From: a virus
Virus record (IMG/VR): IMGVR_UViG_3300009183_004753
Span: 1 to 58,713 of that record
Direction: 5' to 3' (one strand)
DNA: 58,713 bases
Shown: positions 17,717-51,358 of the stretch, piece after piece
Layout of the letters: every line of letters begins with the position of its first letter
How positions within the stretch are numbered: position 1 is the first letter of the stretch
The notes under the pieces: model-generated
Told to the model about the DNA's origin: nothing
Seen by the model: the letters and a program-made list of their open reading frames with translations, nothing else
The model's database searches: none
Program-made: the position numbers and the translations under genes

Positions 17717-18190
17717 ATGTCGCAACTTGCATGGATGTTTAGTTTAATTCCAGATTTTATTTTTGTACTCATTGCCTGGGCCGCTGCTGTAGGCGGGGTT
17801 GGACTATTTTTAGCCAGCAAAGCAGTGCGTTGGATTCCCGGTATTGCACTGTACCGAACACCTGCTGAGTTAGCAGGCGTTGTGTTGTTGGTCATTGGTG
17901 CCTGGATGCTGGGCGGGCAAGCTGCCGATGCACGTTGGCAAGCAAAAGTTGTAGAAGTTGAAGCAAAGTTAAAAATTGCCGAAGAACAATCTGTTGTTGC
18001 CAACACAGAAATAGAAACCAAAACCCGAGAAACAATCAAATACATTCGTGGTCGCACAGAGATTGTTAAACAATATGTTGACCGCGAAGTGGTCAAGTAC
18101 GACACCAAGTTCATGCCAGGCGGCATTTGTGAAATACCTCGAGAATTTGTCAAGGCACACAATGATGCCGCAGAAGGACCTAAAAAATGA
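17717..18190 (+). CDS. inner-membrane spanin-like (Rz-like) protein
   Basis: 157 residues. Two or three hydrophobic segments fill residues 10-75. A charged, probably coiled-coil periplasmic part (KVVEVEAKLKIAEEQSVVANTEIETK) follows, ending FMPGGICEIPREFVKAHNDAAE, a tail typical of Rz-type i-spanins. I-spanins join an outer-membrane lipoprotein to fuse the two membranes at lysis; a lipoprotein gene follows at 18756 and the endolysin at 19034. The number of membrane segments is larger than in classical Rz. Coupled by ATGA to the next gene. Confidence 0.65.
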   Translation: MSQLAWMFSLIPDFIFVLIAWAAAVGGVGLFLASKAVRWIPGIALYRTPAELAGVVLLVIGAWMLGGQAADARWQAKVVEVEAKLKIAEEQSVVANTEIETKTRETIKYIRGRTEIVKQYVDREVVKYDTKFMPGGICEIPREFVKAHNDAAEGPKK

Positions 18191-18759
18191 GAGCTAATGA
18201 ATTTGTAACTGAAGAACCCAGAACAGCGGCCCCAAAGCCCGAAATAGTATCAGTACAGGACGATGGCAAAACGATCACAATTAAAGTACGCGGCCATGAC
18301 GGGGCTGTGCGAGCAATTGCAAATTCGAACCCAGCGGTGTTACAACAACAGTTGAATCTCAAATACGGGCTAAGACTGCCACACAGCATTGCTAAAAAGT
18401 TTGCAGGAATGCCAGCTGCAATGGCCGAAGATCAAGCAGACAATCCCGACAGTTGGCAGTCACAGGCAGCAGATGCCGAACGTGATGAAGAAACTGCTAA
18501 GATGGCTGCGCAAGATGCTGAGGCAGGTGGATTGGCAGAAGAACAACTAGACGAAAAAAGTACTAGCCAAGCACAGTTCCGCACAATGGCAGCAGCCGCA
18601 CACAATCCCAAGTTTGCCAAGAAAGTTGGCATCAGCCCGGATGTGGCTCGAGAATTCCACGGTGCTGATCGTAAACAAAATTATAAATCATTGCCCCGGA
18701 AAGCCGCAGAAGACGCATCCTGGGGAATGGCACCCGAAAGTCGAGGCTACAAGAAATGA
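18187..18759 (+). CDS. putative capsid-targeted internal protein
   Basis: 190 residues. It begins MRANEFVTEEP, which has the same pattern as the T4 internal-protein capsid-targeting peptide (QEFIxE, cleaved after Glu by the prohead protease). A second hydrophobic-Ala-Glu site is MAED at 79-82. The middle is Ala/Glu/Asp-rich, and the C-terminal third (FRTMAAAAHNPKFAKKVGI...FHGADRKQNYKSLP) is basic and ordered-looking. No enzymatic motif. It is placed inside the lysis operon between the two spanin genes, coupled by ATGA on both sides. Packaging in the virion is inference from the N terminus. Confidence 0.65.
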   Translation: MRANEFVTEEPRTAAPKPEIVSVQDDGKTITIKVRGHDGAVRAIANSNPAVLQQQLNLKYGLRLPHSIAKKFAGMPAAMAEDQADNPDSWQSQAADAERDEETAKMAAQDAEAGGLAEEQLDEKSTSQAQFRTMAAAAHNPKFAKKVGISPDVAREFHGADRKQNYKSLPRKAAEDASWGMAPESRGYKK

Positions 18760-19037
18760 TCAACAAACGTGTCGTAGCTAGTTTAGTCGTACTTGTGACA
18801 CTTGCAGGATGCTCAACCGCAGTACCAGTTACTGCACGGTTTCCAGAACCTCCTGGGCTAAACTCTTTAGAACGTTGCCCCAACTTGGAAAAATTAAAAG
18901 ATACACCTGTGCTGAGTGATGTTGCTAGAACAGTAACCATCAACTATGGCACCTACTATGAGTGCGCCGTAAAAGCAGATGCTTGGCAACAGTGGTATCA
19001 GATACAAAAAAATATATTTGAAGGAGCCGTTAAATGA
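18756..19037 (+). CDS. outer-membrane lipoprotein, o-spanin-like
   Basis: 93 residues with a lipoprotein signal: a hydrophobic run ending in the lipobox LAGC with the Cys at 19. The mature part is short, Pro-containing at first (ARFPEPPGLNSL), and has a pair of Cys. Its size, lipobox and position before the endolysin fit an Rz1-type o-spanin partner for the protein at 17717. It is longer and less Pro-rich than lambda Rz1. ATGA couples it to both neighbours. Confidence 0.65.
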   Translation: MINKRVVASLVVLVTLAGCSTAVPVTARFPEPPGLNSLERCPNLEKLKDTPVLSDVARTVTINYGTYYECAVKADAWQQWYQIQKNIFEGAVK

Positions 19038-19651
19038 GTAGCATACTAGCACTGGACCAACTAAAACAGATGGTCAAGAATCCCTACATTGATCATTGGC
19101 ACGACGCACTGGATCAGTTGTTAGATGATTACGAAATCAATACACCACTGCGTGTGGCGCACTTTATTGCACAGTGCGCACACGAGTCGGGCAACTTTGT
19201 GTTCATTAAAGAAAACTTAAACTACAAGGCCGCAAGTTTGATGACGGTGTTTAAAAAGTATTTCCCTACACCGGACTTGGCACAACAATATGCCAACAAA
19301 CCCGAGCGCATTGCCAACAGAGTATATGCTAATCGTATGGGCAATGGTGATGAAGCATCTGGCGACGGATTCCGCTATTGTGGACGTGGACTTATTCAGT
19401 TGACCGGCAAAGACAACTACACATTCTTTGCCGGAAGTTTAAATATCAGTGTGGAAGAGGCCGCAGAATACTTGGCCACCTTTGAAGGTGCCGCACAGAG
19501 TGCCTGCTGGTACTGGGAACAAAACAAACTAAATCGCTTTGCTGACGCAGACGATACCAAGGGGCTCACACGAGCCATCAACGGTGGCTACATTGGTCTA
19601 GAAGATCGAATCCAGCATACTGAACACGCATTACATATACTAGGAGCATAA
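19034..19651 (+). CDS. endolysin, glycoside hydrolase family 19
   Basis: 205 residues. GH19 landmarks are FIAQCAHESGNF with the catalytic Glu near residue 46, FIKENLNY, YANRMGNGDEASGDGFRYCGRGLIQLTGKDNY, and AINGG near the end. GH19 endolysins cut the peptidoglycan glycan strand. There is no signal peptide, so release depends on the holin at 21289. It ends the spanin/endolysin operon. Length is that of a single catalytic domain without a wall-binding module. Confidence 0.9.
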   Translation: MSSILALDQLKQMVKNPYIDHWHDALDQLLDDYEINTPLRVAHFIAQCAHESGNFVFIKENLNYKAASLMTVFKKYFPTPDLAQQYANKPERIANRVYANRMGNGDEASGDGFRYCGRGLIQLTGKDNYTFFAGSLNISVEEAAEYLATFEGAAQSACWYWEQNKLNRFADADDTKGLTRAINGGYIGLEDRIQHTEHALHILGA

Positions 19652-19653
19652 AT

Positions 19654-19773
19654 ATGTTAGAAACACTATTTTGGTTGGCATTAGGAGCATTTGTTGGATG
19701 GAATTTTCCGCAACCAGACTTTGCAAAACGCATACAGGCCCGCGTCATGGCCGCATTTCGAAAGGATCAATAA
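19654..19773 (+). CDS. 39-residue single-pass membrane protein
   Basis: A short ORF with ATG at 19654 and TAA at 19771. The first half (LETLFWLALGAFVGWNF) is one membrane segment and the second half (FAKRIQARVMAAFRKDQ) is a basic amphipathic tail. It lies between the endolysin and carbonic-anhydrase genes with only short gaps, and an AGGAG lies upstream within the preceding gene's end. Its position suggests a role in lysis or membrane function; unknown otherwise. Confidence 0.55.
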   Translation: MLETLFWLALGAFVGWNFPQPDFAKRIQARVMAAFRKDQ

Positions 19774-19774
19774 A

Positions 19775-20716: not shown

Positions 20717-20736
20717 TATAAAAAAGAAAATTAAAA

Positions 20737-21273: not shown

Positions 21274-21288
21274 TAACAAGGAGTTGGC

Positions 21289-30198: not shown

Positions 30199-33100
30199 AT
30201 GAATATTTCTGAACTAGATTCCTACAACCTTGCTGATGCTGTTAAATTTAATGAACAGTTGAACCCACGTATCTGGCAGGGCAATAAAATGCGCCCACAG
30301 GTGCGGGCCACGCTGTTAAAAATTGCTGAAGACTTTAAACAAAGTTTGGGGATTGGCGATTTGAACGTCAAAGACATCACCTTGTCCGGCAGCAATGCTG
30401 GTTACACATATACTCCACATAGTGACATAGATCTACACCTGGTGGTGGACCTACCCGAAGCAGATGTGAGTGAAGTGTATCGCGAGTTGTTTGATGCTAA
30501 AAAGTTTCAGTACAACGAAACACACAATATCAAAATTGGTGGCTACGATGTAGAACTCTATGTGGAAAACGCCAACAAATCGGCAGTGAGTCAAGGCATA
30601 TTCAGTGTGCTGAATAACGACTGGATCAACATTCCACTGAAAAAACGTTCTACAATAAACGACACTGCGGTCAAGAGCAAGTACGATGTGATCAAGCATC
30701 GCATTGAATCAGCAGTGAAATCTGGCAGTCTAAAACGACTGACCAACACTGCTGCCAAGATTAAAAAGATGCGTCAAGCCGGACTTGATCAGCACGGTGA
30801 ACTGGGTCCAGAAAACATTGCGTACAAGATGTTGCGTTCACAAGGTGTTATACAACAACTGTATGATGCCAGAACCAAGGCCAAAGATCGAGCACTGAGT
30901 CTTAAAGAACGGTCTATTGAAATTGATAAACCATTTAAATTCACCTACGGATTCAAAGCCACAGAAGATGTTGGTGCTTCATGGGATGGAGTAAGTCCCA
31001 CAACACAGATGTTCTTGAATGAAGAACCCAAGTCAGATGAAGATATACTCACAGACTTTGTGGAGTTTTGTGTTGCAGAACTAGAGATTGAACAGATGCC
31101 ACGTGTTCGCCTGCGTAAAGATCCGCAGTGGCCTGTGCGGCACAAGACGTTTGGTCGCTACAACGACAATGAAAAAATGTTAGAAGTGGCCTGGGGTCAA
31201 CGACACATCATGGATGTGTTGCGCACAGTGGCACATGAACTCACACACAAGCATCAACACGAACGTGATGGCAGTGATATGGGATCTGACGCAGGTGAAA
31301 CTGGCAGTCCTTACGAAAACGAAGCCAATGCTCGTGCCGGTGTACTCATGCGTGACTATGCCAAACTGCACCCGGAACATTTTGCCGCCGGCCAAACAGA
31401 TGATTTAGCAGAAGCATCAGGATACATCCCCACAAAGAAGCAGGCAAAGGACCCACGCTTTAGCATGGCCTTGACTCGAGATGTACGTCCAGGTGCGGTG
31501 GGTAAGGAAGCAAACAAACTAGGACTAAAGACTGACAATCAAGGACATCCAGGATTGTTAATGACTGGTTTGGCCAATGCACTGCGTGAGTTTAAAGAAA
31601 CTGGGCAGATGCCGCTGATATACGAAGATGAGTTGTTTGAAATCAACATGAGCACAGGTAGCTTACGTCGCGAAGCTGCCAAGACCGGCGCTATTGCTGG
31701 CATGGAATTTGAAATGATTGTGCCCAATGTGGAAGGTGGCGACGATGATGGCCAACAGGAACCTGATTATGAGTATGACGAAGGTGTTAGTAGTATCCAA
31801 GACGCATATGACTTCTTCTACGACGGTGATTACAACAGCCGAGGTGATGTTACTCGACTGCGTGAGAAGATGCAAAATGAATATTACGAATGGCTAGGTG
31901 AGTCGTTTGATACTCGTTGGGACGGTGACGAGTCAGAGTTTGTGTACAACTACCTTAAAGAAAACGCCAGTGCAGATGAAATTGCAGAAATACTAAGCAC
32001 AGAACCCGACGCAGACGGTGAATACCCAGAGCCTGATAAACAGGCATATCGCGATGCCACAGAAAAAGTTGTCGAAGAAAGCTACGGCAACTACTGGTAT
32101 GATGCAGCACGTGAAAGTGCGCAGGAAGATTTTAATCAGAATGCAGACCTAGAATCAGAATGGTTAGAAGATCGAGACTTGAACCGCATGTCAGACATTG
32201 AAAATGAATACAACATGAGTTGGCCGCACTGGCAGTCAATGGGCAATGGTGGCGAAGCCAGCATCGAAGATGTTGCCCAAGAGTTTGAAAATGCCATAGA
32301 CCGTCCTGTTCAAGCCAGCGGTAACTATCACTCCGGCGGCGTGCGAAGACCCAGCCCAACAGCACAGCACTATCTAGTAGAACCTGATGGCAGTTTAGAA
32401 GCCAATGACAGCGATGATGTAGGCCTAGAGTTTGTAAGTCCACCTTTGCCTATTGACGATATATTAAGTGACTTGAACAAAGTCAAGGCCTGGGCCAAAC
32501 AATACGGATGCTACACCAACGATTCAACAGGCCTACACATCAACATCTCAGTGCCGGACTACAGTAGAGAAAACTTGGACTTTGTTAAACTAGCTCTGTT
32601 AATGGGCGACGAGTATGTGCTGGACAACTTTGGTCGTGCTGGCAATACCTACGCTAAATCAGCAATGAAATTAGTACGCGATCAAGTGCGCACTAAACCC
32701 GACGAAGCTGAACGTTTGTTGGATAAAATGAAAGGCAACCTGGACAGTTTGGCAAGCAAGGCCATACACTCGGGCGTGACCAGCAAGTACACCAGTATCA
32801 ACACCAAGGACGGACATATTGAATTCCGCTCACCCGGTGGTGACTGGTTAGATGACAACTTTGACAAGATTGAAAACACATTATTGCGTTTTACAGTGGC
32901 CATGAGTGCGGCTCTAAATCCAGAAATGTATCGCGAAGAATACCTGAAGAAACTGTACAAGTTGTTGACACAGGACAACAAGGGTTCTGACACCATCAAG
33001 TACTTCAGTGAATATGTAGCAGGCAAGATTCCTGCAGCCGCACTGCGTAGTTTTGTTAAGCAGGCACAGTTGGAACGCAAGTTGAAGAAAGATCCAACAG

Positions 33101-33930
33101 GCGGTGAAAAATATTGGTGGAGTGTTCGTAGTCCTGGCAATAGCAATGCTGGTATAGAAGTTGTTGCCTCATCTAAAGAAGAAGCAATTGAAAAAGCCAT
33201 TGGTGGTTATCCAAGTTGGGCTAACTATCGAAGTTCGTTGGTTGCCAAGCCAATGCGTCCATATGAACAATCTGCAAAAACTGTTCGCTACGAAATCTAC
33301 AACAAACAGACTGGCAACTCAGTAGAGGATGCCGATGGAATTACCAATGATGAAGAGGCATTGGTTCGTCTCAATGATTATATTGAACACGGTCCGCATA
33401 GCCTACAACGAGGCCAGGCCACTGCTATGTTTGGTATACGTACTACCGGTGGAGTTGGAATTGTTGATATAGACATGCCAATAGCCCAGGGTCGTGCTGC
33501 CACAAGCCCAACTGGACAGTGGAAAATGATTGACGGATTAAATCGTGAATTATATCGTTTCCGTCCTGCAGAAAACACAAGAACAAGAGCCAATTACTTG
33601 GCAAGAGTATGGGCAGAAACACATAACTTTGACGGTAACTATCAAGTTGATCCAGTGGAAGAAAACGATGTGGTGCCGCAACCGGACGTGATCCCGCTAC
33701 AGCAACCAACACCCGTTCCAGGCAGTACCGCAGACCTAGCACAACGCCGAGCACAAGGTGGCGAGTTTACCGGTGCTTGGAAGATTGTAGATTCTGATGG
33801 TAATGAACTGCATAGATTTTCCGGCATAGGCAATCAACAGCGTGACGCTAATCGTGTGGCCACACAGTGGTTGACCGACAATGGCTACAGCTATGGCACA
33901 GATGTCACTGTGCTACCAATAGTGAGTTAA
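30199..33930 (+). CDS. giant nucleotidyltransferase / metallopeptidase / amidoligase fusion
   Basis: 1243 residues from the ATG at 30199. Domain 1 (residues 1-235) is a Pol-beta-type nucleotidyltransferase: GSN at 64-66 and DxD at 76/78 in PHSDIDLHLVVD. Domain 2 (about 270-400) is a gluzincin-like metallopeptidase: HELTH at 346-350 and Glu375 in ENEANARAG. The junction DLAEASGYIPTKKQAKDPRF (near 405) is a hydrophobic-Ala-Glu site. Domain 3 (about 495-980) resembles amidoligase/ATP-grasp-like proteins: GMEFEM at 501-506, TGLHINIS at 777-784, EFRSPGGDW near 875. Two C-terminal repeats start at GQWKMIDG (1106) and GAWKIVDS (1192). Likely a virion-packaged, injected enzyme. Confidence 0.8.
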   Translation: MNISELDSYNLADAVKFNEQLNPRIWQGNKMRPQVRATLLKIAEDFKQSLGIGDLNVKDITLSGSNAGYTYTPHSDIDLHLVVDLPEADVSEVYRELFDAKKFQYNETHNIKIGGYDVELYVENANKSAVSQGIFSVLNNDWINIPLKKRSTINDTAVKSKYDVIKHRIESAVKSGSLKRLTNTAAKIKKMRQAGLDQHGELGPENIAYKMLRSQGVIQQLYDARTKAKDRALSLKERSIEIDKPFKFTYGFKATEDVGASWDGVSPTTQMFLNEEPKSDEDILTDFVEFCVAELEIEQMPRVRLRKDPQWPVRHKTFGRYNDNEKMLEVAWGQRHIMDVLRTVAHELTHKHQHERDGSDMGSDAGETGSPYENEANARAGVLMRDYAKLHPEHFAAGQTDDLAEASGYIPTKKQAKDPRFSMALTRDVRPGAVGKEANKLGLKTDNQGHPGLLMTGLANALREFKETGQMPLIYEDELFEINMSTGSLRREAAKTGAIAGMEFEMIVPNVEGGDDDGQQEPDYEYDEGVSSIQDAYDFFYDGDYNSRGDVTRLREKMQNEYYEWLGESFDTRWDGDESEFVYNYLKENASADEIAEILSTEPDADGEYPEPDKQAYRDATEKVVEESYGNYWYDAARESAQEDFNQNADLESEWLEDRDLNRMSDIENEYNMSWPHWQSMGNGGEASIEDVAQEFENAIDRPVQASGNYHSGGVRRPSPTAQHYLVEPDGSLEANDSDDVGLEFVSPPLPIDDILSDLNKVKAWAKQYGCYTNDSTGLHINISVPDYSRENLDFVKLALLMGDEYVLDNFGRAGNTYAKSAMKLVRDQVRTKPDEAERLLDKMKGNLDSLASKAIHSGVTSKYTSINTKDGHIEFRSPGGDWLDDNFDKIENTLLRFTVAMSAALNPEMYREEYLKKLYKLLTQDNKGSDTIKYFSEYVAGKIPAAALRSFVKQAQLERKLKKDPTGGEKYWWSVRSPGNSNAGIEVVASSKEEAIEKAIGGYPSWANYRSSLVAKPMRPYEQSAKTVRYEIYNKQTGNSVEDADGITNDEEALVRLNDYIEHGPHSLQRGQATAMFGIRTTGGVGIVDIDMPIAQGRAATSPTGQWKMIDGLNRELYRFRPAENTRTRANYLARVWAETHNFDGNYQVDPVEENDVVPQPDVIPLQQPTPVPGSTADLAQRRAQGGEFTGAWKIVDSDGNELHRFSGIGNQQRDANRVATQWLTDNGYSYGTDVTVLPIVS
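33515..33918 (+). repeat. tandem C-terminal domain repeat in the giant fusion
   Basis: Two similar units of about 50 residues (G-W-K-hydrophobic-(I/V)-D-x-x-x-x-E-L-x-R-F ... A-N-x-x-A-x-x-W) start near codons 1106 and 1192 and are joined by a Pro-rich acidic linker. This is a protein-level repeat; DNA identity is low. Confidence 0.6.
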
Positions 33931-33931
33931 C

Positions 33932-34918
33932 ATGCGAGCCAGTGAATTTTTAATCGAATATAGAGATAGACTATTACAATATGTCAAGAGTCTGTTGCCC
34001 ACTTGGCCTGAATATGTTCTCAAAGATTGGTTGGTGCCCAACAAAGGTGACTTTAGTAATTTACCAGATACTGAACTTAAAAATGGTATAATGGAAAAAT
34101 TAAAAGGACAAGGTCTTTCTCCGAGTACTAAATGGCAACTTGTACCCGATATGAAGTTTACAATGGACATGTTTGAGCCAATGACTACACAGCGATTGGT
34201 TGGTCGTGCAGGTGGCAAAAGTGATTTAGGCATGAAAATTCCAAAGGATGCCGAACGACACGCTACACAAGCCGCCCTGGCACAACAGCAAGGCGGTGTG
34301 CGTAAAGAACCTGTGCTACTAATAAAAACAGCCAATGGATATGAACTATTAGAAGGTTGGCATAGAACAATACAGCACTTTGCTCGGTATCCTAATGGAT
34401 ATACAGGCCCTGCGTATGTGGCAGTGGCACAAGGTCAGCAAGGTGTGGCGGAAGGCTCGGAACATTACAATGGCATTGAAATCTCCATGGAAAAGGAAGA
34501 TGATGAAATTATGGTAAAGGCAATAATGCCAGGCGGTCGCGAACTTGGACATGTATTATTTGTACAAGAGGGTGATTACTTAATGCCACAAGATTTAGAA
34601 GTTGATGAACGCTATCAAGGCCAAGGCATTGCCGCCACAATGTACGACTATATAAAAAGCAAAGGATACAAGATACGCCGCAGTGGTCAACAAACAGATG
34701 CAGGTGCAGGCTTCTGGGACAAACATCGTCCTGAGCAAAACGTTTGGGAAAACTTTGCGGATGGCAAAAATCCTGGACGCAAAGGCTTGAGCAAGCGAGT
34801 GGGAATTCCTAAAAAAGCCACCTTGGGCAAACTGGAAAAGATTGCAAAGTCCAGCACAGGCGAACGCCGCAGGATGGCACAGTGGCAACTAAATATGAGA
34901 CGAGGTAAGAAAAAATGA
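33932..34918 (+). CDS. putative capsid-targeted mosaic protein with ParB-like and GNAT domains
   Basis: 328 residues. The N terminus MRASEFLIEYR fits the T4-like capsid-targeting pattern with a LIE cleavage site. Residues 90-165 contain LLIKTANGYELLEGWHRTIQHF, like the ParB/Srx-type (GxHR) fold, with EGWHR at 141-145. A QGVAEG junction (172-175 for VAEG) separates it from residues 176-280. That part has the GNAT acetyltransferase acetyl-CoA loop ERYQGQGIAATMYDYIKSKG (QGQGI at 229-233). The tail is basic (RRMAQWQLNMRRGKKK). Coupled to the next gene by ATGA. Confidence 0.7.
   Translation: MRASEFLIEYRDRLLQYVKSLLPTWPEYVLKDWLVPNKGDFSNLPDTELKNGIMEKLKGQGLSPSTKWQLVPDMKFTMDMFEPMTTQRLVGRAGGKSDLGMKIPKDAERHATQAALAQQQGGVRKEPVLLIKTANGYELLEGWHRTIQHFARYPNGYTGPAYVAVAQGQQGVAEGSEHYNGIEISMEKEDDEIMVKAIMPGGRELGHVLFVQEGDYLMPQDLEVDERYQGQGIAATMYDYIKSKGYKIRRSGQQTDAGAGFWDKHRPEQNVWENFADGKNPGRKGLSKRVGIPKKATLGKLEKIAKSSTGERRRMAQWQLNMRRGKKK
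34438..34454 (+). repeat. 17-base direct repeat coding QGVAE, copy 1
   Basis: GCAAGGTGTGGCGGAAG, identical to 35223-35239 in the next gene. It encodes the QGVAE junction between domains. Confidence 0.85.
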
Positions 34919-35652
34919 GATCAAGTGAATTCGTATTTGAAAAGTGGAGCGAAAAATACAAAAGCAGTATTAACTGTAGCCACCCTCGAGGCTTTTCACA
35001 AAAAGCACACTGTGCCGGTAAAAACAAACAGAATGAATCAGTTGAGATGGAAATGGTGTGCGAAGATTGTGGCATGTGTGAAACACATGGCAATGTAAAT
35101 GAAATTAAAAAAGGTGCTAAAGACTCAAATGGCTATACCCGTTGCTGGCCTGGCAAACATGCTGAAGGCACCAAAAAGGGCAAGAATGGCGGACAAGTTC
35201 GCAACTGTGTGCCCAATGAATCGCAAGGTGTGGCGGAAGAATTATCAAAAGAGTTTGATCTTATTGAAAGTATCATCGAAGGTATTGCTGAGCACAATGG
35301 TGTAGATGCCGAAACAGTATGGGAGGACCTAGAAAGCCTGACTGAAGATGAACTGTATGCGTTTGCTGTGACTTCGCAACTGAACGAAGACTGGCAAAAG
35401 GCCAACAAGCGAGACAAGACCGATGGCATGAGCCAAAAGGCTGTGAATGCTTATCGCAGAGAGAATCCCGGATCGAAACTAAAGACTGCTGTGACCACTA
35501 AACCTTCGAAGCTAAAGAAAGGCTCTAAAGCCTCCAAGCGCAGATCAAGCTATTGCTCACGCAGCCGTGGACAAATGAAAATGCATAGTATCTCATGTGC
35601 CAAAACTCCAGACAAAGCCATCTGCAAAGCACGACGTCGTTGGAACTGCTGA
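34915..35652 (+). CDS. putative capsid-targeted Cys-rich mosaic protein
   Basis: 245 residues. N terminus MRSSEFVFEKW (targeting-peptide pattern). Residues 18-40 carry NCSHPRGFSQKAHCAGK, followed by CEDCGMCETHG and a TRCWPGKHAEGTKKGK stretch. QGVAE ends at residue 108. The middle is acidic and helical. The final 80 residues (DGMSQKAVNAYRRENPGSKLKTAVT ... SSYCSRSRGQMKMHSISCAKTPDKAICKARRRWNC) are very basic with four Cys, like a small nucleic-acid-binding module repeated in T4-like marine phages. Zinc binding is possible. Function unknown. Confidence 0.65.
   Translation: MRSSEFVFEKWSEKYKSSINCSHPRGFSQKAHCAGKNKQNESVEMEMVCEDCGMCETHGNVNEIKKGAKDSNGYTRCWPGKHAEGTKKGKNGGQVRNCVPNESQGVAEELSKEFDLIESIIEGIAEHNGVDAETVWEDLESLTEDELYAFAVTSQLNEDWQKANKRDKTDGMSQKAVNAYRRENPGSKLKTAVTTKPSKLKKGSKASKRRSSYCSRSRGQMKMHSISCAKTPDKAICKARRRWNC
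35223..35239 (+). repeat. 17-base direct repeat coding QGVAE, copy 2
   Basis: Identical to 34438-34454 and in the same reading frame relative to the protein, 785 bases downstream. Confidence 0.85.
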
Positions 35653-35840
35653 TGAAGGTCAAAGAAGTCGTTAAAAGTGCAAAGCAATGGACTGCCAAGG
35701 TGCGTGTTCAGAATCCTGGATATGTGGGCTGGGTCGATGCAGTGGTCTGGGCTCCTAACACTCATGTGGCCAGACAAATGATCAAAGCACAGTACCGAAT
35801 TGAAGATTGGCACGTGGGCTCAATCAAAGAACTGCGTTAA
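35652..35840 (+). CDS. 62-residue basic protein, unknown
   Basis: Starts on the TGATG overlap with the previous gene. The sequence MKVKEVVKSAKQWTAKVRVQN, then VGWVDAVVWAPNTHVARQMIKAQY looks like a small alpha/beta domain. It ends by a 4-base tail-to-tail overlap with the desaturase gene. No family recognised. Confidence 0.65.
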   Translation: MKVKEVVKSAKQWTAKVRVQNPGYVGWVDAVVWAPNTHVARQMIKAQYRIEDWHVGSIKELR

Positions 35841-36541
35841 CTACGTAAGCGAGCCAGTCCTACTAGTCTAAATACACCAAGCCACATCCATCCTGCATCA
35901 AATTCAAACCAACGACGACTCAGTCTAGGGTTAGCAGGATCCAGATGATGGTTATTATGCAGGCATTCCCCACCAACAACAATATCCCAAGGCACAATGT
36001 TTCTGCTGTGATCTTTAGTTTCGCCATTTCTATATCCCCACCAATGTCCAATGCCGTTGATAACTCCGGCCGCCCACCAAGGTATCCATGCCATTTGTAT
36101 ACCCCAAATCAGCACTCCCCACACACCAAACAACGCAACATCGATCGCAAGCATTAATAAGATGCCTAGTCTGCTGTGGCGAGTGTAAACGTTGCGTTCA
36201 ATCCAGTCATCCGGTGTGCCTGCGCCATACTGTGCAACCATCTCTGCGTCTCGGCTGGCTGAGTGATACAGGCCTGCACCTTTAAACAATACACGCCCAA
36301 TTCCGTATACGTGTGGGCTGTGCGGATCACCTTCTGCATCACTGAATCTGTGATGCTTGCGATGGATAGCTACCCATTGCTTTGTAACCATGCCTGTGGT
36401 GAGCCATAGCCAGGCTCGCATGAAGTGTTCCAGTACAGGAGTAAAAACGATACCGCGATGTGCTTGGCCACGGTGTAGGTACAATGTAACACAGATTATG
36501 GTAATGTGTGTGACTATTAAGGTATAGATAAGTTCTGTCAT
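35837..36541 (-). CDS. membrane fatty-acid (acyl-CoA delta-9 type) desaturase
   Basis: 234 residues from the ATG at 36541. It has the three histidine boxes of the integral-membrane desaturases: HRGQAH at 23-28, HRKHH at 60-64 and HNNHH near residue 203. Four hydrophobic segments surround them. The enzyme introduces a cis double bond in acyl chains using O2 and a host electron donor. It would raise membrane fluidity during infection. It is shorter than host desaturases (about 300) but has all boxes. It is on the minus strand, with a TTAAATAC octamer 3 bases before the ATG. Confidence 0.88.
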   Translation of the reverse strand: MTELIYTLIVTHITIICVTLYLHRGQAHRGIVFTPVLEHFMRAWLWLTTGMVTKQWVAIHRKHHRFSDAEGDPHSPHVYGIGRVLFKGAGLYHSASRDAEMVAQYGAGTPDDWIERNVYTRHSRLGILLMLAIDVALFGVWGVLIWGIQMAWIPWWAAGVINGIGHWWGYRNGETKDHSRNIVPWDIVVGGECLHNNHHLDPANPRLSRRWFEFDAGWMWLGVFRLVGLARLRS

Positions 36542-36544
36542 AGT

Positions 36545-36552
36545 GTATTTAA
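36545..36552 (-). promoter_or_regulatory. late-type octamer TTAAATAC, leaderless geometry
   Basis: On the minus strand TTAAATAC ends 3 bases before the desaturase ATG (36541). No Shine-Dalgarno is present. It mirrors the plus-strand octamer at 36599. Confidence 0.5.
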
Positions 36553-36598
36553 GTAAAACTATTGCCAAATTGCTAATTTAACTATACAGTTAACGGCA

Positions 36599-36609: not shown

Positions 36610-36891
36610 ATGAAACAGTTTATTCGTGTGCTATGTGACGTTGATTGTGCTTGGGCAGGTACTGAGCCAGTGTATCGCGTTTATGTTGATGACGAATTAT
36701 TTGCTGAAAGAACCTGGCGCTGGCAAGATGTGTATCTAGAAGAAATGATACAGATCGAAGCAGAGCCGGGAGAATATGTAATCAGTTATGAACTTGTTGA
36801 TTCTCCCGGTGCCACGCTACGTGTGTCAAACATGCGTGTGGATTATGGTCCCGGAAGAATTAAAGGAAATCTACTAAAGATACTCACATGA
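36610..36891 (+). CDS. small beta-sandwich-like virion protein, unknown
   Basis: 93 residues, all beta in appearance (FIRVLCDVDCAWAGTEPVYRVYVDDEL, then PGEYVISYELVDSPGATLRVSNMRVDYG). No catalytic residues. It resembles small carbohydrate-binding-like or decoration proteins. It is expressed from a late-type octamer with leaderless geometry. The stop overlaps the next ATG. Confidence 0.6.
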   Translation: MKQFIRVLCDVDCAWAGTEPVYRVYVDDELFAERTWRWQDVYLEEMIQIEAEPGEYVISYELVDSPGATLRVSNMRVDYGPGRIKGNLLKILT

Positions 36892-37088
36892 GAGCTCAGG
36901 AATTTATCAAAGAAAATGCGTCAGTTGGTGCCACCAGTTCCGGCAGCGTTGCCACAGTGGCCATGCCCATGGGTGGCATGCAGTCAAGAAATCCCGATAG
37001 TTTCTTTTCTGGTAAATATACAAATGACCCTTTTCCCAACACACCGAAAAGTATGAGAAAGAAAGCAAGGAAAACAAATGTTAAGTGA
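36888..37088 (+). CDS. putative capsid-targeted small internal protein
   Basis: 66 residues, starting MRAQEFIKENAS, which is the closest match in the window to the T4 internal-protein leader (xQEFIxE, I-x-E cleavage site). The rest is Ser/Gly/Met-rich then basic (KSMRKKARKTNVK), like small T4 IP proteins that are packaged and injected. ATGA overlap with the previous gene; its end overlaps the start of the Dps gene by 11 bases. Confidence 0.65.
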   Translation: MRAQEFIKENASVGATSSGSVATVAMPMGGMQSRNPDSFFSGKYTNDPFPNTPKSMRKKARKTNVK

Positions 37089-37518
37089 TTTACTAAAGAC
37101 CTATTTGGCCAGTACATTTTCGTACTATTTGAAGGCACACTATTTTCATTGGAATGTGGAAGGACCTGACTTTGGTGAATTACATGAATTCTTTTCCAAC
37201 ATCTACGAAGATGCCTATTCAGCTGTGGATCCCATTGCTGAGTACATCCGTACCACAGAAGAATATGCTCCTGGCAGTCTCAGCCGCTTTTTAGAACTAA
37301 CACAAGTACCAGATCAAACCAAAGTGCCACGTGCTCGTTTGATGCTGGAAGAATTACTCGCAGACACCCAAATAATGATCAACCTTAGCCGCCAAGTTTT
37401 CGAAGCCAGTGCTGCCGAAGGTCGTGAAGACATTGCAAACTTTGCCGCAGAACGCCAAAGCCAACACGGCAAGTATCAGTGGCAACTGAAAAGTTACTTG
37501 AAGGACGCGAGGGCATAA
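37078..37518 (+). CDS. dps: Dps-like ferritin-fold protein
   Basis: 146 residues with the Dps core. The N-terminal helix has LKAHYFHWNVEGPDFGELHEFFSNIYEDAYSAVDPIAEYIRT, in which the ferroxidase-site HxxxW and D/E residues are present. A conserved middle and a C-terminal helix with QSQHGKYQWQLKSYL follow. Dps dodecamers bind DNA and oxidise and store iron. Here the gene lies between capsid-targeted-type genes and starts inside the previous one, so packaging with the genome or protection of DNA against host oxidants are both possible. Length slightly below bacterial Dps (about 160). Confidence 0.9.
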   Translation: MLSDLLKTYLASTFSYYLKAHYFHWNVEGPDFGELHEFFSNIYEDAYSAVDPIAEYIRTTEEYAPGSLSRFLELTQVPDQTKVPRARLMLEELLADTQIMINLSRQVFEASAAEGREDIANFAAERQSQHGKYQWQLKSYLKDARA

Positions 37519-37519: not shown

Positions 37520-38218
37520 ATGGATGAAATTTACACGATAATGCAGAGACTTGCATTGATTGAAAGCACTATCACACCAGATAATGTTACCAAGGGATTG
37601 AACGCACAACAAAAATCTGTGCCGCAGATGCCTGCACTGTTTAAAATGCCTGATCAAGGTCCTGTGTTGGGTGGCGATCCTGATAAGAAAGCCTCCAGTG
37701 CTGGTTACATGGTTGGCTCCAATGAAAGTGAAGAACCTGAGCAGGATGCACTGGAAGAAGAAGTGGCCAGTGAAGACAAGCTGGACCGAGTTAAAAAGTC
37801 ATTTGCCGATTACCTTGACAGCATTTCCGACGAAAAGAAAGACAGTGACTTAAAAGACCGGGTCCGAGTAGATCGTGACATCAGCAAGCGGCCTGCGAAA
37901 GATGCCAGCATCATTGCCAAACAAGTTGTAGGTGTTGCAGAAGATCCCACAGAAGAAGATCCCATTGTACAAATGCCCACAACCCCGGTACAAGAACCTA
38001 CCTATGCTGAATCAGCGCCGGTTAAAACCGTTGCACTAGAAGACGGTCGTTCATGTGAAATACACGGAGACGAACGTGCGGGATTTGAAATTCGACACGC
38101 GGGCCGTTCATTGAAGAGTCGCTTTAAGAACTTGGACCAAGCACAGATGGCACTGGAAATGTACCAGGCTAGACAACGCCGACAAGACGAATCAGCCGAC
38201 TACGTAGAGGAAGCATAA
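37520..38218 (+). CDS. acidic, low-complexity virion-type protein, unknown
   Basis: 232 residues, Glu/Asp/Lys-rich, with a GVAED junction ending at Glu141. Residues 165-220 form an ordered part (VKTVALEDGRSCEIHGDERAGFEIRHAGR, then SRFKNLDQAQMALEMYQARQR). It could be a scaffolding-like or internal protein. No enzymatic motif. TAATG coupling to the next gene. Confidence 0.6.
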   Translation: MDEIYTIMQRLALIESTITPDNVTKGLNAQQKSVPQMPALFKMPDQGPVLGGDPDKKASSAGYMVGSNESEEPEQDALEEEVASEDKLDRVKKSFADYLDSISDEKKDSDLKDRVRVDRDISKRPAKDASIIAKQVVGVAEDPTEEDPIVQMPTTPVQEPTYAESAPVKTVALEDGRSCEIHGDERAGFEIRHAGRSLKSRFKNLDQAQMALEMYQARQRRQDESADYVEEA

Positions 38219-40980
38219 TGAACCTAAATGACCTATATGAAATGAGAGACTCACGTGACGCATACGAACGTGATGTTGATAACAGCCAAGCGGGTATGGG
38301 CAAGCAGTCTCGTTCGGACGTCACAGGCGAGGAAGAACCCAGCGGTGTTTTTACTGTTGTGATCAACGGTAAACCTTGGAAAACTGGCTCGAGCAATGAA
38401 ATGTTTGCTCTTGCCAGTCGTGTTGCCGACAAGCACTCTGACAAAAAAGTTGCTGTTAAATGGCCCACAGGTGAATTAAACACAGTTAAATCACGTGATG
38501 TAACCGAAGGTTATCATAATTCTAAAACAATAATCACTGAAGCGTTAATTACACAAAAATTATGGGAAAATGCTGGCCGTAAGTTGATGGAAGCACAGTT
38601 AACTGCTGACCAAATTAATCAAATCTTTCAACAGGTAGAACAAGGTGCCACTGCCGCAGGCGGTAATCGTACCTTGATTGGTAAAGGCAAAGATGCTGCC
38701 GAAGCTGTTAACAAAGCCTGGGAAGATTTAAAGACCAAAGTACAGAACTCAGGACCTATCAAAGGTGTTGATGCCATGTATGACCAAGCCGCTGAGAAAC
38801 TAAAGCAAGCAACAGGCGGTGATCAAGGCGTGATGAAATACGTTCAAAAGTATCGTGACTTTGCCAAGGCACATCCTGTGGCACAGAGTTTAATTTACGC
38901 AGCCCTGATTGCTGCCGCTGGTATTACGGGTGTGGCACCCGGTGGTGCTGCCGTACTGGGATTGTTCAAGTTAGTAGACAAGTTGTTGCAAGGTGAGAAG
39001 TTCTCCAGTGCCGCTTACTCAGGTGCCAAAACAGGCGCAATGGCTTATGGTGCTGCCAAGGTTGGCGACTATATTAAAGGGCAAATGGCAGCAAAAGCCG
39101 ACCCTGGTATGGCATATAAACCCGACGTCAGGACACCCACTGCTGGCCAAGGTGCTGGTCAATCATATGATGCAGGCGGAACATTTGCTTCAACTGCAGA
39201 AAATCCCGGTGTTCGTAGATTGGCCAATTGGGCTGTTAAAAACTTTGACCAAAACACTTACGATTATGTTCCCAAGGGCATGGACGTTTTTGTTTATGAT
39301 AAGGCCGGCAACTTGGTACAATCAATAACATCCGATGGTAGCATGCGACGGGCAGGCATCTATACAGGAAAACAAATGTTAGATGTTATGAAAAAATCTG
39401 CAGGAGTATATGAATCTATCAATTTGTCAGAAAGTCAAATCTTTTTATTGATAGGAAAGATTGTTGAACGCCAACATAAAATTGATGAAGGTATCATGGA
39501 TACCATCAAAGGGGCCGCAGGCAAAGCTGTTGACTGGGCCAAGACCAAAGGCACCAATTTAACAACTAAAGTCACTGCTGACAAACTATTACAAGCATGG
39601 AAGAAGGCAGGTAGTCCAACTGACAGTGAGGCTGTGGCCAAAATAATTCAATCTGCAGGCATACCGTCTGATTCTATTAAACAAGTCTATGGTACAATGA
39701 AGATACCTTTTGCAGGTGAACCTGGCGCCGCTGCCGCACCTGCACCTGCTGCTAACCAAGCGGCAGGTGGAATACCTGCAGTTCCGGCCAAACCTGCGGC
39801 AACAGCACAAACGCCTGCGGCAGCTCCTGCACCGGCAGCTAAACCAGCAACTCCTCAAGCAACATCTACTACAGCAGGTGCACCGTCTAAGGTTACCTAC
39901 GGTGGATTGTTGGCACCGAAGAAATCTGCTGCGCCTGTTGCAGACTTTAGTAAAACTGGTTTCTCAGGTTACCAGACTGCCACAGCAAAGCAACCAGCAA
40001 AGCAACCAAGCATGGCAGAAGGCCATACAGAAGTTAAAGATAAAGAAGGTAAAGTTGTAAGTTGGAAAGACGACTCAGAATGGCACCCAGCTGAAAAAAA
40101 CAAGCAAGGTCAGCCCAAAGATCCACGTGGCGTAGTCACACACCTGAGTGATGTTGCTCGTCGTAAAACTGCTGCCCAGCAAGACATGGCAGAAGCCGAA
40201 GTAGACAGCGACGGATACTCTGTTGACCACGCTGACTCCGGCGAGTACGATTACGAAGGTGATCAAGCTAGAGATCAGATGAACACCATTGTACGTGCGG
40301 CTCGCAGACTTGACGGCCTGTTGGATGACAACGAGAACATGCCAGAGTGGGTGCAGATGAAAGTTACCCTGGCTGCTGACTATCTTGACACAGCAGCTGA
40401 CTACATTGAATCCAATCAAGAACCCGAACTAGAAGAAGGTTGGAAAGAAAAATTAGGTGGTGCGGCACTGGCAGGTGCACTGGCACTGGGTGCAGGCGGA
40501 GCACAAGCCAGAGTTATGCCCGGAGATGATCCTGGCGTCAACCGCTTAACAGGCAAACCAATTGCCACACAACAGGCAACTGATACTGCACCAACTCAAT
40601 CAACGTCTTCAATTAGCGTTGCAAAATCCCAGGCACAGTATGATGTTGATACTCAGACACTAACATACAAGGGCAAACAATACAAATGGAACTCTGATGC
40701 CCAGGCCACCGGACAAGGCGAAGTTGTTACTGCGCCGTCAATGGCTGTTGGATCTAGAAGCATGGGCTCAACCAAAGTAGAACTAAACCCAAACGGAACC
40801 TACACCAAAGTGCCTGCTAATGAATCTCAAGAAAAAGTTGGCAACATGGATGCCGACAAGTTTGATTCAGCCATGGCACGTCTTAAACAGTTGGCAGGCG
40901 CAGGTCCATTAAAGACTGTGTATGATCCTACTAAACGTGTGTACCGAAACATTCCTGTAGCAGTGCAACCTCAAAAATGA
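38218..40980 (+). CDS. large putative internal/virion protein, membrane-active region
   Basis: 920 residues. The N terminus MNLNDLYEMRDSRDAYERD is a looser version of the targeting peptide. Residues 120-290 are helical with a hydrophobic Ala/Gly-rich stretch (AQSLIYAALIAAAGITGVAPGGAAVLGLFKLV) that could insert in a membrane. A long Ala/Pro/Gln-rich linker lies at 500-600. Hydrophobic-Ala-Glu junctions are MAEG (599-602) and MAEA (657-660). A second hydrophobic Ala/Gly stretch lies near 745-760. It could be a genome-ejection or injected protein. No enzyme motif recognised. Confidence 0.6.
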   Translation: MNLNDLYEMRDSRDAYERDVDNSQAGMGKQSRSDVTGEEEPSGVFTVVINGKPWKTGSSNEMFALASRVADKHSDKKVAVKWPTGELNTVKSRDVTEGYHNSKTIITEALITQKLWENAGRKLMEAQLTADQINQIFQQVEQGATAAGGNRTLIGKGKDAAEAVNKAWEDLKTKVQNSGPIKGVDAMYDQAAEKLKQATGGDQGVMKYVQKYRDFAKAHPVAQSLIYAALIAAAGITGVAPGGAAVLGLFKLVDKLLQGEKFSSAAYSGAKTGAMAYGAAKVGDYIKGQMAAKADPGMAYKPDVRTPTAGQGAGQSYDAGGTFASTAENPGVRRLANWAVKNFDQNTYDYVPKGMDVFVYDKAGNLVQSITSDGSMRRAGIYTGKQMLDVMKKSAGVYESINLSESQIFLLIGKIVERQHKIDEGIMDTIKGAAGKAVDWAKTKGTNLTTKVTADKLLQAWKKAGSPTDSEAVAKIIQSAGIPSDSIKQVYGTMKIPFAGEPGAAAAPAPAANQAAGGIPAVPAKPAATAQTPAAAPAPAAKPATPQATSTTAGAPSKVTYGGLLAPKKSAAPVADFSKTGFSGYQTATAKQPAKQPSMAEGHTEVKDKEGKVVSWKDDSEWHPAEKNKQGQPKDPRGVVTHLSDVARRKTAAQQDMAEAEVDSDGYSVDHADSGEYDYEGDQARDQMNTIVRAARRLDGLLDDNENMPEWVQMKVTLAADYLDTAADYIESNQEPELEEGWKEKLGGAALAGALALGAGGAQARVMPGDDPGVNRLTGKPIATQQATDTAPTQSTSSISVAKSQAQYDVDTQTLTYKGKQYKWNSDAQATGQGEVVTAPSMAVGSRSMGSTKVELNPNGTYTKVPANESQEKVGNMDADKFDSAMARLKQLAGAGPLKTVYDPTKRVYRNIPVAVQPQK

Positions 40981-41054
40981 ACACAAACGAATATCCTGTA
41001 TATCCCGAAGATGACGGATACGATCGTTTCCGCAATCCCTACTCACCAGTATAA
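40977..41054 (+). CDS. 25-residue coupled micro-ORF
   Basis: ATG at 40977 overlaps the preceding TGA (ATGA), and its TAA overlaps the next ATG (TAATG). The peptide is acidic and Tyr/Pro-rich (MNTNEYPVYPEDDGYDRFRN and five more). Perfect double coupling suggests it is translated. Function unknown. Confidence 0.55.
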   Translation: MNTNEYPVYPEDDGYDRFRNPYSPV

Positions 41055-41686
41055 TGCTGTTAAGTGACTTCAGAATCAAGAACTTAGACAAACTAGATAA
41101 TATTCTAGTGGATCTCTGCAGTGAAATTGTTCGAGCCAAACTTGACCACACTGACCTAGGCATGGTGGCTGCCGCAGTGTTAGATCCCGACGACAATTGT
41201 GTAAGTGCTATAAACTATCCTGCAGAGGATGGTTCACGTGTGCATGCCGAACGTGCGGCCATGGATGCTTACCTGGAACAGTTTGGCAGCATTCCTGAAG
41301 GCAGTATCATAATCACAACACTGAGTCCTTGTACAGAAGACATGCCAGATCGTCATGGCGAAAGTTGTACAGACTTGATCAATCGATCTGGTGTACACAA
41401 AGTGTATGCAGGCTATGCAGATCCATCACAGGACGAAGTGCGTAAAAAGTTTCACGTTAAGACCACAACCAACCCACGCATCCGACAACTGTGTAAAGCG
41501 TTTGCTGATACCTTTTTAAAAGATCACTTAGACGAACTATCATTCTTAGGATCGCAGTGTACCAAAGACTGCTCAGGACATCGTGCTGGATATGAATGGT
41601 CAAAGCGCAAAGGTCTAAAGCAGGGCAACTCACCCTGGTCACCAAGTTTTAACAAAGGTGCCGCACTGGCGGTTGCTGGCAAATAA
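41054..41686 (+). CDS. cytidine/deoxycytidylate-deaminase-like protein with Cys-rich tail
   Basis: 210 residues. The deaminase zinc site is VHAERAAMDAYL (HAE) and LSPCTEDMPDRHGESC (PC and a later C). After about residue 175 a separate tail follows: CTKDCSGHRAGYEWSKRKG and SPSFNKGAALA. That module is familiar as a small basic tail on various phage proteins. The N terminus MLLSDFRIKN loosely resembles the targeting peptide. It may edit nucleotides (dCMP to dUMP) or nucleic acids; the longer SPC-to-C spacing (about 12) suggests a non-standard substrate. Starts by TAATG. Confidence 0.7.
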   Translation: MLLSDFRIKNLDKLDNILVDLCSEIVRAKLDHTDLGMVAAAVLDPDDNCVSAINYPAEDGSRVHAERAAMDAYLEQFGSIPEGSIIITTLSPCTEDMPDRHGESCTDLINRSGVHKVYAGYADPSQDEVRKKFHVKTTTNPRIRQLCKAFADTFLKDHLDELSFLGSQCTKDCSGHRAGYEWSKRKGLKQGNSPWSPSFNKGAALAVAGK

Positions 41687-47697: not shown

Positions 47698-47745
47698 ATG
47701 AATCACGGCTTACCGGCCATAAACGGAGACTATGAGTTATATTGA
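47698..47745 (+). CDS. putative 15-codon leader ORF overlapping DNA polymerase start
   Basis: ATG at 47698 with AAGGAA just upstream; the peptide MNHGLPAINGDYELY ends at a TGA 14 bases inside the polymerase gene, in another frame. Its NGDY codons contain the CGGAG Shine-Dalgarno of the polymerase. Translation is inferred. Confidence 0.3.
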   Translation: MNHGLPAINGDYELY

Positions 47746-50389: not shown

Positions 50390-50392
50390 TCT

Positions 50393-51358
50393 ATGAAACT
50401 CAGTGAATTAGTTGCGTACCGTAACCACTTGTTAGAATTTGATGTTAACAACATCCAATATACTGCACGACATAAACTAGAAGAAATAGTGTACGGTGTA
50501 CAGAATAGTGTGATACAGCCACGTGCGTTTACGCAAACTCTTAAAGAAGATCAAACTCGTGTGGTAAATGCGTTTGACCATTTTGCGTCTACCTTAAACG
50601 AATTAACAAATGAGTTAGACACCATGATCGAGACGGCTGAAAAAATACAGTACGCCGAAAGCACCAGGTTGTACACTGAAGAAATGGCACGATATGGTCG
50701 ACTTGACGAGCCTACAAATAAAAAAGTCAATCAGCACATTCTAGATCGTCGTATGCCAATGACTGCGGATGTACAACAGATGATTTCTAATCGTATCAAA
50801 AGTTATGTTGATTGGAAGTACCCAGGATTAATTATCCGTCCTGGGGTCGAAACTTTTATACATGATTTAGTAGCTTTGGATCCGCTGTACATTGTTGATC
50901 ACAGTGCAGAACTATTGCAACCTGCATTGGTTGCGTTTCCTGAAGAATACCGCCGCAGGCTACGAATGTACGAGCAAGATCCATGCTCGGCTGACGTGCT
51001 GGCCACAATGCCCAACAATCAATTTGGATTGTGCCTGGCATTTAACTTTTTTGAGTTTACTCCAATTGAAGTGCTAGAACAATACTTGAAAAATATTTTT
51101 AACAAGTTACGCCCAGGGGGCATATTAGCAATGACATTCAACGATTGCGATCGAGCACACTGTGTTGCGTTAGTTGAAAAGAATTTCTGCTTCTATACTC
51201 CGGGACAACGAGTTAAGGCAACTGCAAAATCAATTGGATATAAACAAATGTTCAGTTGGACAGACGCAGGTAATCTAACTTGGTTAGAATTACGAAAACC
51301 TGGCGAACTTGAAAGCATCCGTGGTGGACAGACTTTGGCAAAAATAGTTAACAAATAA
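50393..51358 (+). CDS. helical protein with methyltransferase-like C-terminal part
   Basis: 321 residues. N terminus MKLSELVAYRNHLLEFD, loosely like the capsid-targeting pattern (LLE). Residues 60-150 are a charged helical/coiled-coil region. From about residue 200, FGLCLAFNFFEFTPIEVLEQYLKNIFNKLRPGGILAMTFNDC looks like motifs IV-VI of a SAM methyltransferase. A clear motif I (GxGxG) is not found, so catalysis is doubtful. It lies three bases after the polymerase gene and is probably co-transcribed. Confidence 0.6.
   Translation: MKLSELVAYRNHLLEFDVNNIQYTARHKLEEIVYGVQNSVIQPRAFTQTLKEDQTRVVNAFDHFASTLNELTNELDTMIETAEKIQYAESTRLYTEEMARYGRLDEPTNKKVNQHILDRRMPMTADVQQMISNRIKSYVDWKYPGLIIRPGVETFIHDLVALDPLYIVDHSAELLQPALVAFPEEYRRRLRMYEQDPCSADVLATMPNNQFGLCLAFNFFEFTPIEVLEQYLKNIFNKLRPGGILAMTFNDCDRAHCVALVEKNFCFYTPGQRVKATAKSIGYKQMFSWTDAGNLTWLELRKPGELESIRGGQTLAKIVNK

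Follow-up and report, generated by a model that had tools for sequence, protein, structure and literature searches.

The IMG/VR virus record IMGVR_UViG_3300009183_004753 was analysed over its whole length of 58,713 nucleotides (58.7 kb), which we call the window. Four of its predicted proteins, each beginning at an ATG, start with the pattern MR[AS]xEF[LIV]xE. This work will focus on that short N-terminal tag, on the proteins that carry it, and on where its parts recur within them.

The tag and the prohead protease

The window belongs to a jumbo phage of the T4 superfamily. Among the cultured phages searched its DNA polymerase is closest to that of Sinorhizobium phage Phosso (51%) and then to that of Agrobacterium phage Atu_ph07 (47%), and positions 23590 to 45000 have no DNA similarity to cultured phages. 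A longer IMG/VR record, G001 (346,856 bp), encodes a DNA polymerase 100% identical to the window's over all 885 residues and repeats the four tag sites with order and spacing unchanged, so we treat it as the same species. Its gene set of 478 genes was predicted by a simple open reading frame (ORF) procedure; the ORFs of other relatives were taken from stop to stop, with start codons inferred. The tags are as follows, a slash marking the predicted cut here and throughout.

18187 to 18213, plus strand: tag 1, MRANEFVTE/
33932 to 33958, plus strand: tag 2, MRASEFLIE/
34915 to 34941, plus strand: tag 3, MRSSEFVFE/
36888 to 36914, plus strand: tag 4, MRAQEFIKE/

These rows rest on direct reading and on a shuffle test in G001. 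The DNA pattern of the tag has four matches in the window, and the same pattern read backwards has none. Across the 478 genes of G001, EF[LIVM]xE occurs 12 times in 106,087 five-residue windows, and six of the 12 begin exactly at residue 5: the window's four, MRAHEFLIE (gene 247028) and MRAREFLRE (gene 247396). When each G001 protein is shuffled, the mean number of residue-5 tags is 0.10 and the maximum in 2,000 runs is 2. The first-pass annotation had described four such starts on otherwise unrelated carriers. The starts are exactly as it claimed, and the four bodies behind them are mutually dissimilar (best pairwise BLASTP E value 0.078).

That annotation also held that the T4 internal proteins IPI to IPIII begin QEFIxE. 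This is right for IPII and IPIII, which start MKTYQEFIAE, and wrong for IPI, which starts MKTFKEFTSTTTP and lacks EF-hydrophobic-x-Glu. The window's tags are N-terminal peptides of about ten residues with both the EF box and the hydrophobic-x-Glu of a T4-type capsid targeting sequence, and judged by sequence the tag is a variant of it. One G001 gene, at 244274, starts MKHFKEYLAE, which has the look of the T4 form. The two further tagged genes of G001 adjoin one another downstream of tail genes (247028 to 247782; positions 28 to 782 of locus L144) and have the C-terminal end SPVKGF[RK]GYPR in common; searched as proteins against cultured phages, they found no match. Tag pairs spaced 358 to 422 bp occur in 8 of 17 uncultured records, and such pairs may be a conserved virion component rather than cargo.

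The first-pass annotation would have counted a complete genome lacking a prohead protease against its idea, but one is present: the T4 gp21 family (Peptidase_S77, PF03420) has a single match in G001 (E 1.5e-25), while neither PF03420 nor the S78 protease family PF04586 was found in the window itself. The match lies in a head cassette made up of the portal (phrog_213), a 73-residue protein starting MILNELYQRE, an acidic 255-residue protein that matches nothing in PHROGs, the protease (phrog_207), a 366-residue protein (phrog_10922, a family annotated as of unknown function) that we take for the scaffold by its position, and the major capsid protein (phrog_138). The window's four tagged genes are more than 140 kb from this cassette in G001.

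We searched for PF03420 in 29 uncultured records, picked by length from match lists; the long ones are a selection from those lists. It was present in 3 of 7, 11 of 17 and 2 of 5 records in the three batches. Every one of the nine that are 250 kb or longer (G001, G002, G009 to G013, G015 and G025) has both the protease and the exact tag. Four records in the batch of 17 have no exact tag; those four were chosen through the NFADGK module described below. The protease is carried by all five cultured relatives. In Phosso, which is in culture, the gene after the S77 protease (locus L010, position 2073) starts MRASELFEFW, possibly another variant of the tag.

Hydrophobic-x-Glu at module borders

Behind their tags, the four window proteins are built as follows.

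18187 to 18759, plus strand: tagged putative cargo protein, 190 residues; predicted sites AAMAE/DQADN (residue 81) and EQLDE/KSTSQ (residue 123)
33959 to 34453, plus strand: module D1 of the 33932 protein, ending QGVAE/; from D1 contexts and weak ParB-like structural matches
34454 to 34750, plus strand: GNAT-like acetyltransferase module of the 33932 protein, ending NVWE/; from its fold and a sub-cut-off Pfam match
34751 to 34918, plus strand: NFADGK module of the 33932 protein, including the stop codon; from NFADGK contexts
34915 to 35652, plus strand: tagged putative cargo protein, 245 residues; KWSEKYK module, then QGVAE/ (residue 108) and SQLNE/DWQK (residue 158)
36888 to 37088, plus strand: tagged 66-residue protein whose arm after the tag copies the presumed capsid maturation junction (NASVGATSSGSVATV); from phrog_17311 and local alignment

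A stronger point, we believe, was overlooked by the first-pass annotation: borders between modules inside the proteins repeat the half of the tag that concerns cleavage. Scanning viral contigs with the pattern ATG-MRA-x-EFI-x-E gave at least 120 stretches, and the tagged set was drawn from loci L015 to L389 (375 loci, 4.07 Mb; L001 to L014 were excluded). A locus entered the set either through its resemblance to window proteins or through the tag pattern, and frequencies in these loci are not population estimates. They hold 244 tagged ORFs, and the 243 with a testable body form 92 BLAST families, 64 of them singletons; some families could be merged by distant homology.

For the junction test, the 60 residues after each tag were sought within other ORFs, no nearer to the start than 25 residues and with no tag directly before them. 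Contexts of one module group that have the same 8 residues upstream were counted once. This yielded 142 distinct contexts in 125 ORFs and 24 module groups. The residue before the internal body lies outside the query, and it is Glu in 134 of the 142; in 121 the body is preceded by [LIVMFY]-x-Glu. As background, 6.4% of positions in the same proteins follow Glu and 1.9% follow hydrophobic-x-Glu. NFADGK contexts are over-represented, having been enriched by one scan, hence the count without them: 70 of 78 for Glu and 65 of 78 for hydrophobic-x-Glu. A control on untagged genes, with queries starting MR or MK removed, gives 30 and 9 of 289. Before that purge the control stood at 58 and 29 of 356, contaminated by missed tagged queries such as MKTKEFTTE/GWSQK. 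At least one hydrophobic-x-Glu context is found in 18 of the 24 module groups, and a few of the 142 contexts are doubtful, VRAQEFIAE probably being a tag with another start codon.

The other half of the tag is not repeated. Numbering back from the border, Phe is at P4 in 2 of the 142 internal sites and EF in 1; P3 is V in 49, L in 41, I in 18 and M in 12. Information is intermediate at P4 to P6 and low at P7 to P12 (0.17 to 0.32 bits). The ORF set contains the string QGVAE 79 times, compared with 0 to 2 times for each of four permutations and the reversed string, and QGVAE precedes different modules. Among collapsed ORFs of at least 250 residues, 22 of 38 with QGVAE start with a tag of either class (the second is described in the last section) versus 114 of 1,506 others. 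Two modules read directly illustrate the rule. NFADGK stands after MRAQEFVTE/ in locus L034 and after NVWE/, QGVAE/, SMTE/ or IMSE/ elsewhere, with Glu before it in 70 of 70 contexts and [LIVMF]xE in 61. Module D1, traced by BLAST, has 20 N-terminal-tag and 22 internal contexts, numbers read by eye from the list; 41 of the 42 are exact and one is shifted by one residue.

Suppressed amber mutants of T4 IPIII indicate that residues 4 and 7 serve mainly targeting and residues 8 and 10 processing, and gp21 cleaves after L/I-x-E (PMC9026906, cited, like the papers below, for the passages that bear on these proteins). MKTYQEFIAE has F at residue 7, I at residue 8 and E at residue 10. Here EF is N-terminal while hydrophobic-x-Glu is found both at the N terminus and at borders, and therefore the tag appears to be split between targeting and processing in the same way.

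The 33932 protein has its sites at EFLIE/, at QGVAE/GSEHY (residue 174) and at QNVWE/NFADG (residue 273). Its AlphaFold model (mean pLDDT 70.9, 23 sequences) has low-confidence stretches at 167 to 174 and 267 to 284 that contain E174 and E273. Searched by fold against the PDB, the model has no match that reaches E 0.001; its middle module looks like a GNAT acetyltransferase (best Foldseek E 3.1e-3 at probability 1.00, Pfam below cut-off), and BFVD gave weak matches to ParB-like proteins. A protein search of cultured phages found no match to 33932. In the 34915 protein SQLNE/ stands directly before a module that bears DUF6321. In the 18187 protein, a body resembling the one after AAMAE/ directly follows the tag MRAREFIIE in locus L122. 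Its C-terminal domain is shared with 121Q gp51, an annotated structural protein, and with 201phi2-1 gp383; only part of the protein matches cultured phages, in 30 records, and among the matches listed all places fall within query residues 116 to 177. Since these two proteins are untagged, this domain is weak support at most. PHROGs matches of the four tagged proteins include no family named internal protein, and Pfam searches of ten tagged relatives gave one match above the curated cut-off (ParB_N) and none of any kind for four of the ten.

In sequence, the 36888 protein connects the tag to the capsid. The G001 capsid protein reads NTRKYLKE/NASAGSTAAGNIATLN at the place where T4 gp23 loses its propeptide, the position of the cut being presumed, and 36888 reads MRAQEFIKE/NASVGATSSGSVATVAM. 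The junctions correspond, FIKE/NASVGATSSGS against YLKE/NASAGSTAAGN, so that the phage's own capsid protein has the same type of presumed cleavage junction. Over this stretch phrog_17311 matches both 36888 (E 3.7e-6) and the capsid protein (E 3.2e-4). Among the other 477 G001 genes the best match of 36888 is the capsid protein, with a local score of 65 against at most 48 in 500 shuffles; among cultured phages a protein search found no match. Relatives have a capsid-like arm behind other tags, as in MRAAEFVKE/DASGGSTSAGS and MRANEFILE/TTTSGSVATV. A similar segment leads long QGVAE ORFs of 548 and 794 residues, for example MRFNQIVE/NTTAGSVATVAQPM, which suggests that the capsid-arm module can act as a leading segment. 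Directly downstream of 36888 is an untagged Ferritin/Dps-like gene (37078 to 37518; Pfam Ferritin, E 4.6e-20).

Cultured phages provide a further line of evidence. The first module of 34915 occurs in cyanomyophages behind their own T4-type peptide: MKSFKQFQE/SWSNKYKKSIDC in Bellamy gp122, MKTFKQFQE/GWSNKYKKSIDC in SynMITS9220M01_096, and MKTLKQFLKE followed further on by EEFRE/SWSNKYKKSIDC in S-SM2_108. A tagged nucleotidyltransferase of locus L230, MKITEFLTE/APNKTAVV, is homologous to the cyanophage cluster T4-GC190. Four of the six starts read in that cluster are tagged, namely MKKFSTFISE/A in S-ShM2, VKSFGQFLTE/A in S-SSM7, MKKFSAFLSE/A in syn9 and MKKFSAFLKE/A in P-SSM4. The start in S-PRM1 is looser (VSFFKKVRTILE), and the sixth, in Bellamy, has no tag as annotated. 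S-SM1, outside these six, starts MKKFSAFLNE/A. T4-GC190 was detected in purified S-SM1 virions, as passages of Sullivan et al. 2010 (PMC3037559) report.

Probable packaged polyproteins and the alternatives

Starting from what is read in the sequence directly (the tag, its position, the diversity of its carriers, the protease gene, the copy of the capsid junction and the border rule), we think it likely that the four proteins are internal head proteins, or cargo, with a two-part targeting tag, made as polyprotein precursors that the prohead protease cuts. MR[AS]xEF[LIV]xE would be the two-part capsid-targeting sequence. Its EF box, going by T4 IPIII, would dock the protein on the prohead core, and its hydrophobic-x-Glu would be cut by the gp21-family protease in head maturation, as in T4, so removing the tag. 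We infer that the same protease would separate the polyprotein into stand-alone modules inside the prohead, and these (GNAT-like, ParB-like, DUF6321, NFADGK and others) would then be ejected with the DNA. We speak of a polyprotein because hydrophobic-x-Glu, often as QGVAE/, stands before most recognised modules. The proposal in the first-pass annotation of a portable T4-type targeting peptide with a gp21-type cleavage site thus draws support from several independent sequence tests. Effector roles for the modules seem likely by analogy, given that some are enzyme-like and that in T4 IPI acts against a restriction enzyme and Alt is an ADP-ribosyltransferase (PMC9026906). Ejection into the host and the role of each module are the least certain parts of this scheme.

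The internal sites could be read differently. Perhaps the tag targets and is cut, but internal hydrophobic-x-Glu strings are inherited scars of gene fusion and multidomain cargo stays whole. Fusing a tagged gene behind another would leave hydrophobic-x-Glu before its body, and such strings are common by chance (that 1.9% of positions) and often lie inside domains. However, a scar should retain EF, which is found at 1 of 142 internal sites; QGVAE, with its 79 occurrences, precedes different modules; and 134 of 142 contexts still have Glu at P1, with little information at P7 to P12. We consider this reading unlikely. It is also conceivable that the tagged proteins belong to the core or scaffold, as T4 gp67 and gp68 do, and are cut up and expelled in maturation with no role in the host. 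In T4, gp21 does cut core proteins into several pieces (PMC9026906), 36888 is short and capsid-arm-like, and a small head-cassette protein has a related start. This sits poorly with some carriers whose domains look like enzymes (amidoligase and ParB_N pass the Pfam cut-off; GNAT falls short of it but has the support of its fold), with the distance of more than 140 kb between the window's four genes and the head cassette of G001, and with a tagged set that varies among relatives, and we rate it quite unlikely.

We find it very improbable that the EF box is some other N-terminal signal, for a membrane, for degradation or for another complex, that happens to resemble the T4 peptide. T4 IPI itself departs from the motif, and what the peptide does here is argued from its letters, but the match to MKTYQEFIAE of IPII and IPIII, the capsid-junction copy, the protease in nine of nine tag-bearing records of at least 250 kb and the tagged T4-GC190 in virions all speak for a head signal. 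The motif is short enough that chance agreement of the four N termini had to be considered. It is rejected, its probability being close to nil, by the counts: six tags in G001 where shuffling gives 0.10 on average, and, among relatives and contigs picked by the pattern, 243 tagged ORFs that fall into 92 families.

It is important to realize that several results weigh against packaged polyproteins. The exact tag is absent from all five cultured relatives, though all five encode the protease, and no PF03420 was found in 13 of the 29 uncultured records, all of them 215 kb or shorter. The G001 pair at 247028 and 247396, next to tail genes, need not be cargo. Bellamy's GC190 homologue is untagged as annotated, and T4-GC190 was undetected in S-PM2 virions according to the same passages of PMC3037559. 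Six of the 24 module groups have no hydrophobic-x-Glu context (four of these have one context, one has two and one has three), and 56 of 142 sites combine L or I at P3 with Glu at P1, with V at P3 in 49, compared with the L/I-x-E of T4 gp21. The 33932 model is also of low confidence at 1 to 5, 38 to 40 and 96 to 104, away from the predicted internal sites, the last two stretches being within D1. Hydrophobic-x-Glu strings lie inside apparent domains as well, for example at residues 55, 82, 141, 213 and 226 of 33932. There are many of these, so cut sites cannot be told from the motif by itself; those inside domains are probably unused. Few of the modules match a named enzyme family beyond its curated cut-off, and most belong to no named family; packaging, cutting, ejection and module functions are argued for this phage from its genome.

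Comparison with known systems helps to place the packaged polyproteins that we favour. The T4 internal proteins likewise have a capsid targeting sequence and gp21 processing (PMC9026906, PMC5694885, PMC3012670). The likeness lies in a short N-terminal EF-hydrophobic-x-Glu peptide (in IPII and IPIII) on diverse proteins and in a gp21-family protease, here in G001, and T4 internal proteins are not highly conserved either (PMC9026906). The present set differs in having MRAx in place of MKTYQ, in being far larger (92 post-tag families), in carriers that string several modules together with a site of protease type ahead of modules, and in a tagged protein with the copied capsid junction.

The polyvalent proteins of Iyer et al. 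2017 (PMC5512222) are phage proteins that each combine several disparate domains and for which packaging and injection are predicted. The passages of that paper treat GNATs, ParB-like DNases, NTases, kinases and ARTs and liken the proteins to polyproteins. Several disparate domains share a polypeptide in 33932 (D1, the GNAT fold and NFADGK) and in the window protein 30199, described below; no such combination was seen in 36888. The processor proposed in PMC5512222 is an embedded zincin-like peptidase, whereas here the borders have the specificity of a head-maturation protease and the tag is of T4 type. Pfam found no embedded zincin-like metallopeptidase in the four tagged proteins, and 30199 has a weak M78 match (E 0.0045, below cut-off).

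Among the ejection proteins of phiKZ and SPN3US, a gp21-related protease cuts after short Glu-ending motifs, and the diverged paralogues gp53 and gp54 have near-identical N-termini (PMC5694885). Those proteins differ in having mostly long propeptides and A-x-E or S-x-E motifs, and the passages of PMC5694885 give no module-border rule. In P1 a large internal protein is loaded through an N-terminal signal, that of DarB; Dar proteins leave the head along with the DNA, and DarA is cut by the prohead protease (PMC9024508, PMC12810830); the lineage and head differ, and Dar N-termini have no consensus (PMC9024508). Among the open-access PMC papers listed we recognised none that joins targeting tags with polyvalent proteins or with head-protease sites at module borders, which is not proof of absence.

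On balance we lean toward a broader claim, held with less assurance: that capsid-cargo polyproteins are encoded by many phages of the T4 superfamily, both cyanophages in culture and jumbo phages that are not. In these polyproteins head-protease sites would link interchangeable effector modules under one targeting box, cutting in the prohead would yield separate effectors, and recombination at the sites would shuffle the modules. Proteins that phages inject are hard to tell from sequence. If the claim is true, the injected arsenal of an uncultured phage would be readable from its genome, and the two-part rule of an N-terminal EF box and border hydrophobic-x-Glu would list likely packaged proteins and their mature pieces, including those of uncultured jumbo phages. 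It would also give polyvalent proteins an alternative means of separation, the capsid maturation protease instead of an embedded peptidase. The idea is testable in cultured cyanophages and in the T4 packaging system.

Looser starts and neighbouring genes

The first-pass annotation added four looser starts to the family, three of which have features worth setting out.

38218 to 40980, plus strand: probable cargo polyprotein, 920 residues, with second-class start MNLNDLYE/; from its start class and a fusion in G006
30199 to 33930, plus strand: multidomain protein, 1243 residues, starting MNISELDS; amidoligase above Pfam cut-off, N-terminal tag doubtful
41054 to 41686, plus strand: deaminase starting MLLSDFRI; C-terminal module after DHLDE/, no convincing tag

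A second class of tag is plausible for 38218. Small head-cassette proteins (MILNELYQRE in G001; MKLVELFE, MLDEIFE and MLKDIFE in relatives) also have starts of this class, as do several QGVAE proteins. In G006 (locus L176, start 15933, minus strand) a 680-residue ORF joins homologues of 18187 and 38218 under the tag MKFNEFINE, the 38218-like part coming before the last residues of the 18187-like part. Starts of this class may be linked to the N terminus of T4 Alt.

The other three we do not accept as tagged. The start of 30199 is not tag-like, though it contains modules found in tagged proteins too and relatives of its amidoligase region start, for example, MKLYDFLTE or MRYREFELTE. It also has NTP_transf_2 and M78-type peptidase matches just below or below Pfam cut-offs, with FLNE/ and DELFE/ before two of its domains. 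The C-terminal module of 41054 belongs to tagged proteins in loci L107 and L109, and its own start has no convincing tag. For 50393, which starts MKLSELVA, we have no supporting result.

Two neighbouring genes of the window may be mentioned. Inside the tag cluster, 35837 to 36568 on the minus strand encodes a membrane protein whose N terminus we take to be desaturase-like. The protein at 10966 to 11943 has a signal-peptide-like start and, as an impression from reading, the look of a substrate-binding protein.

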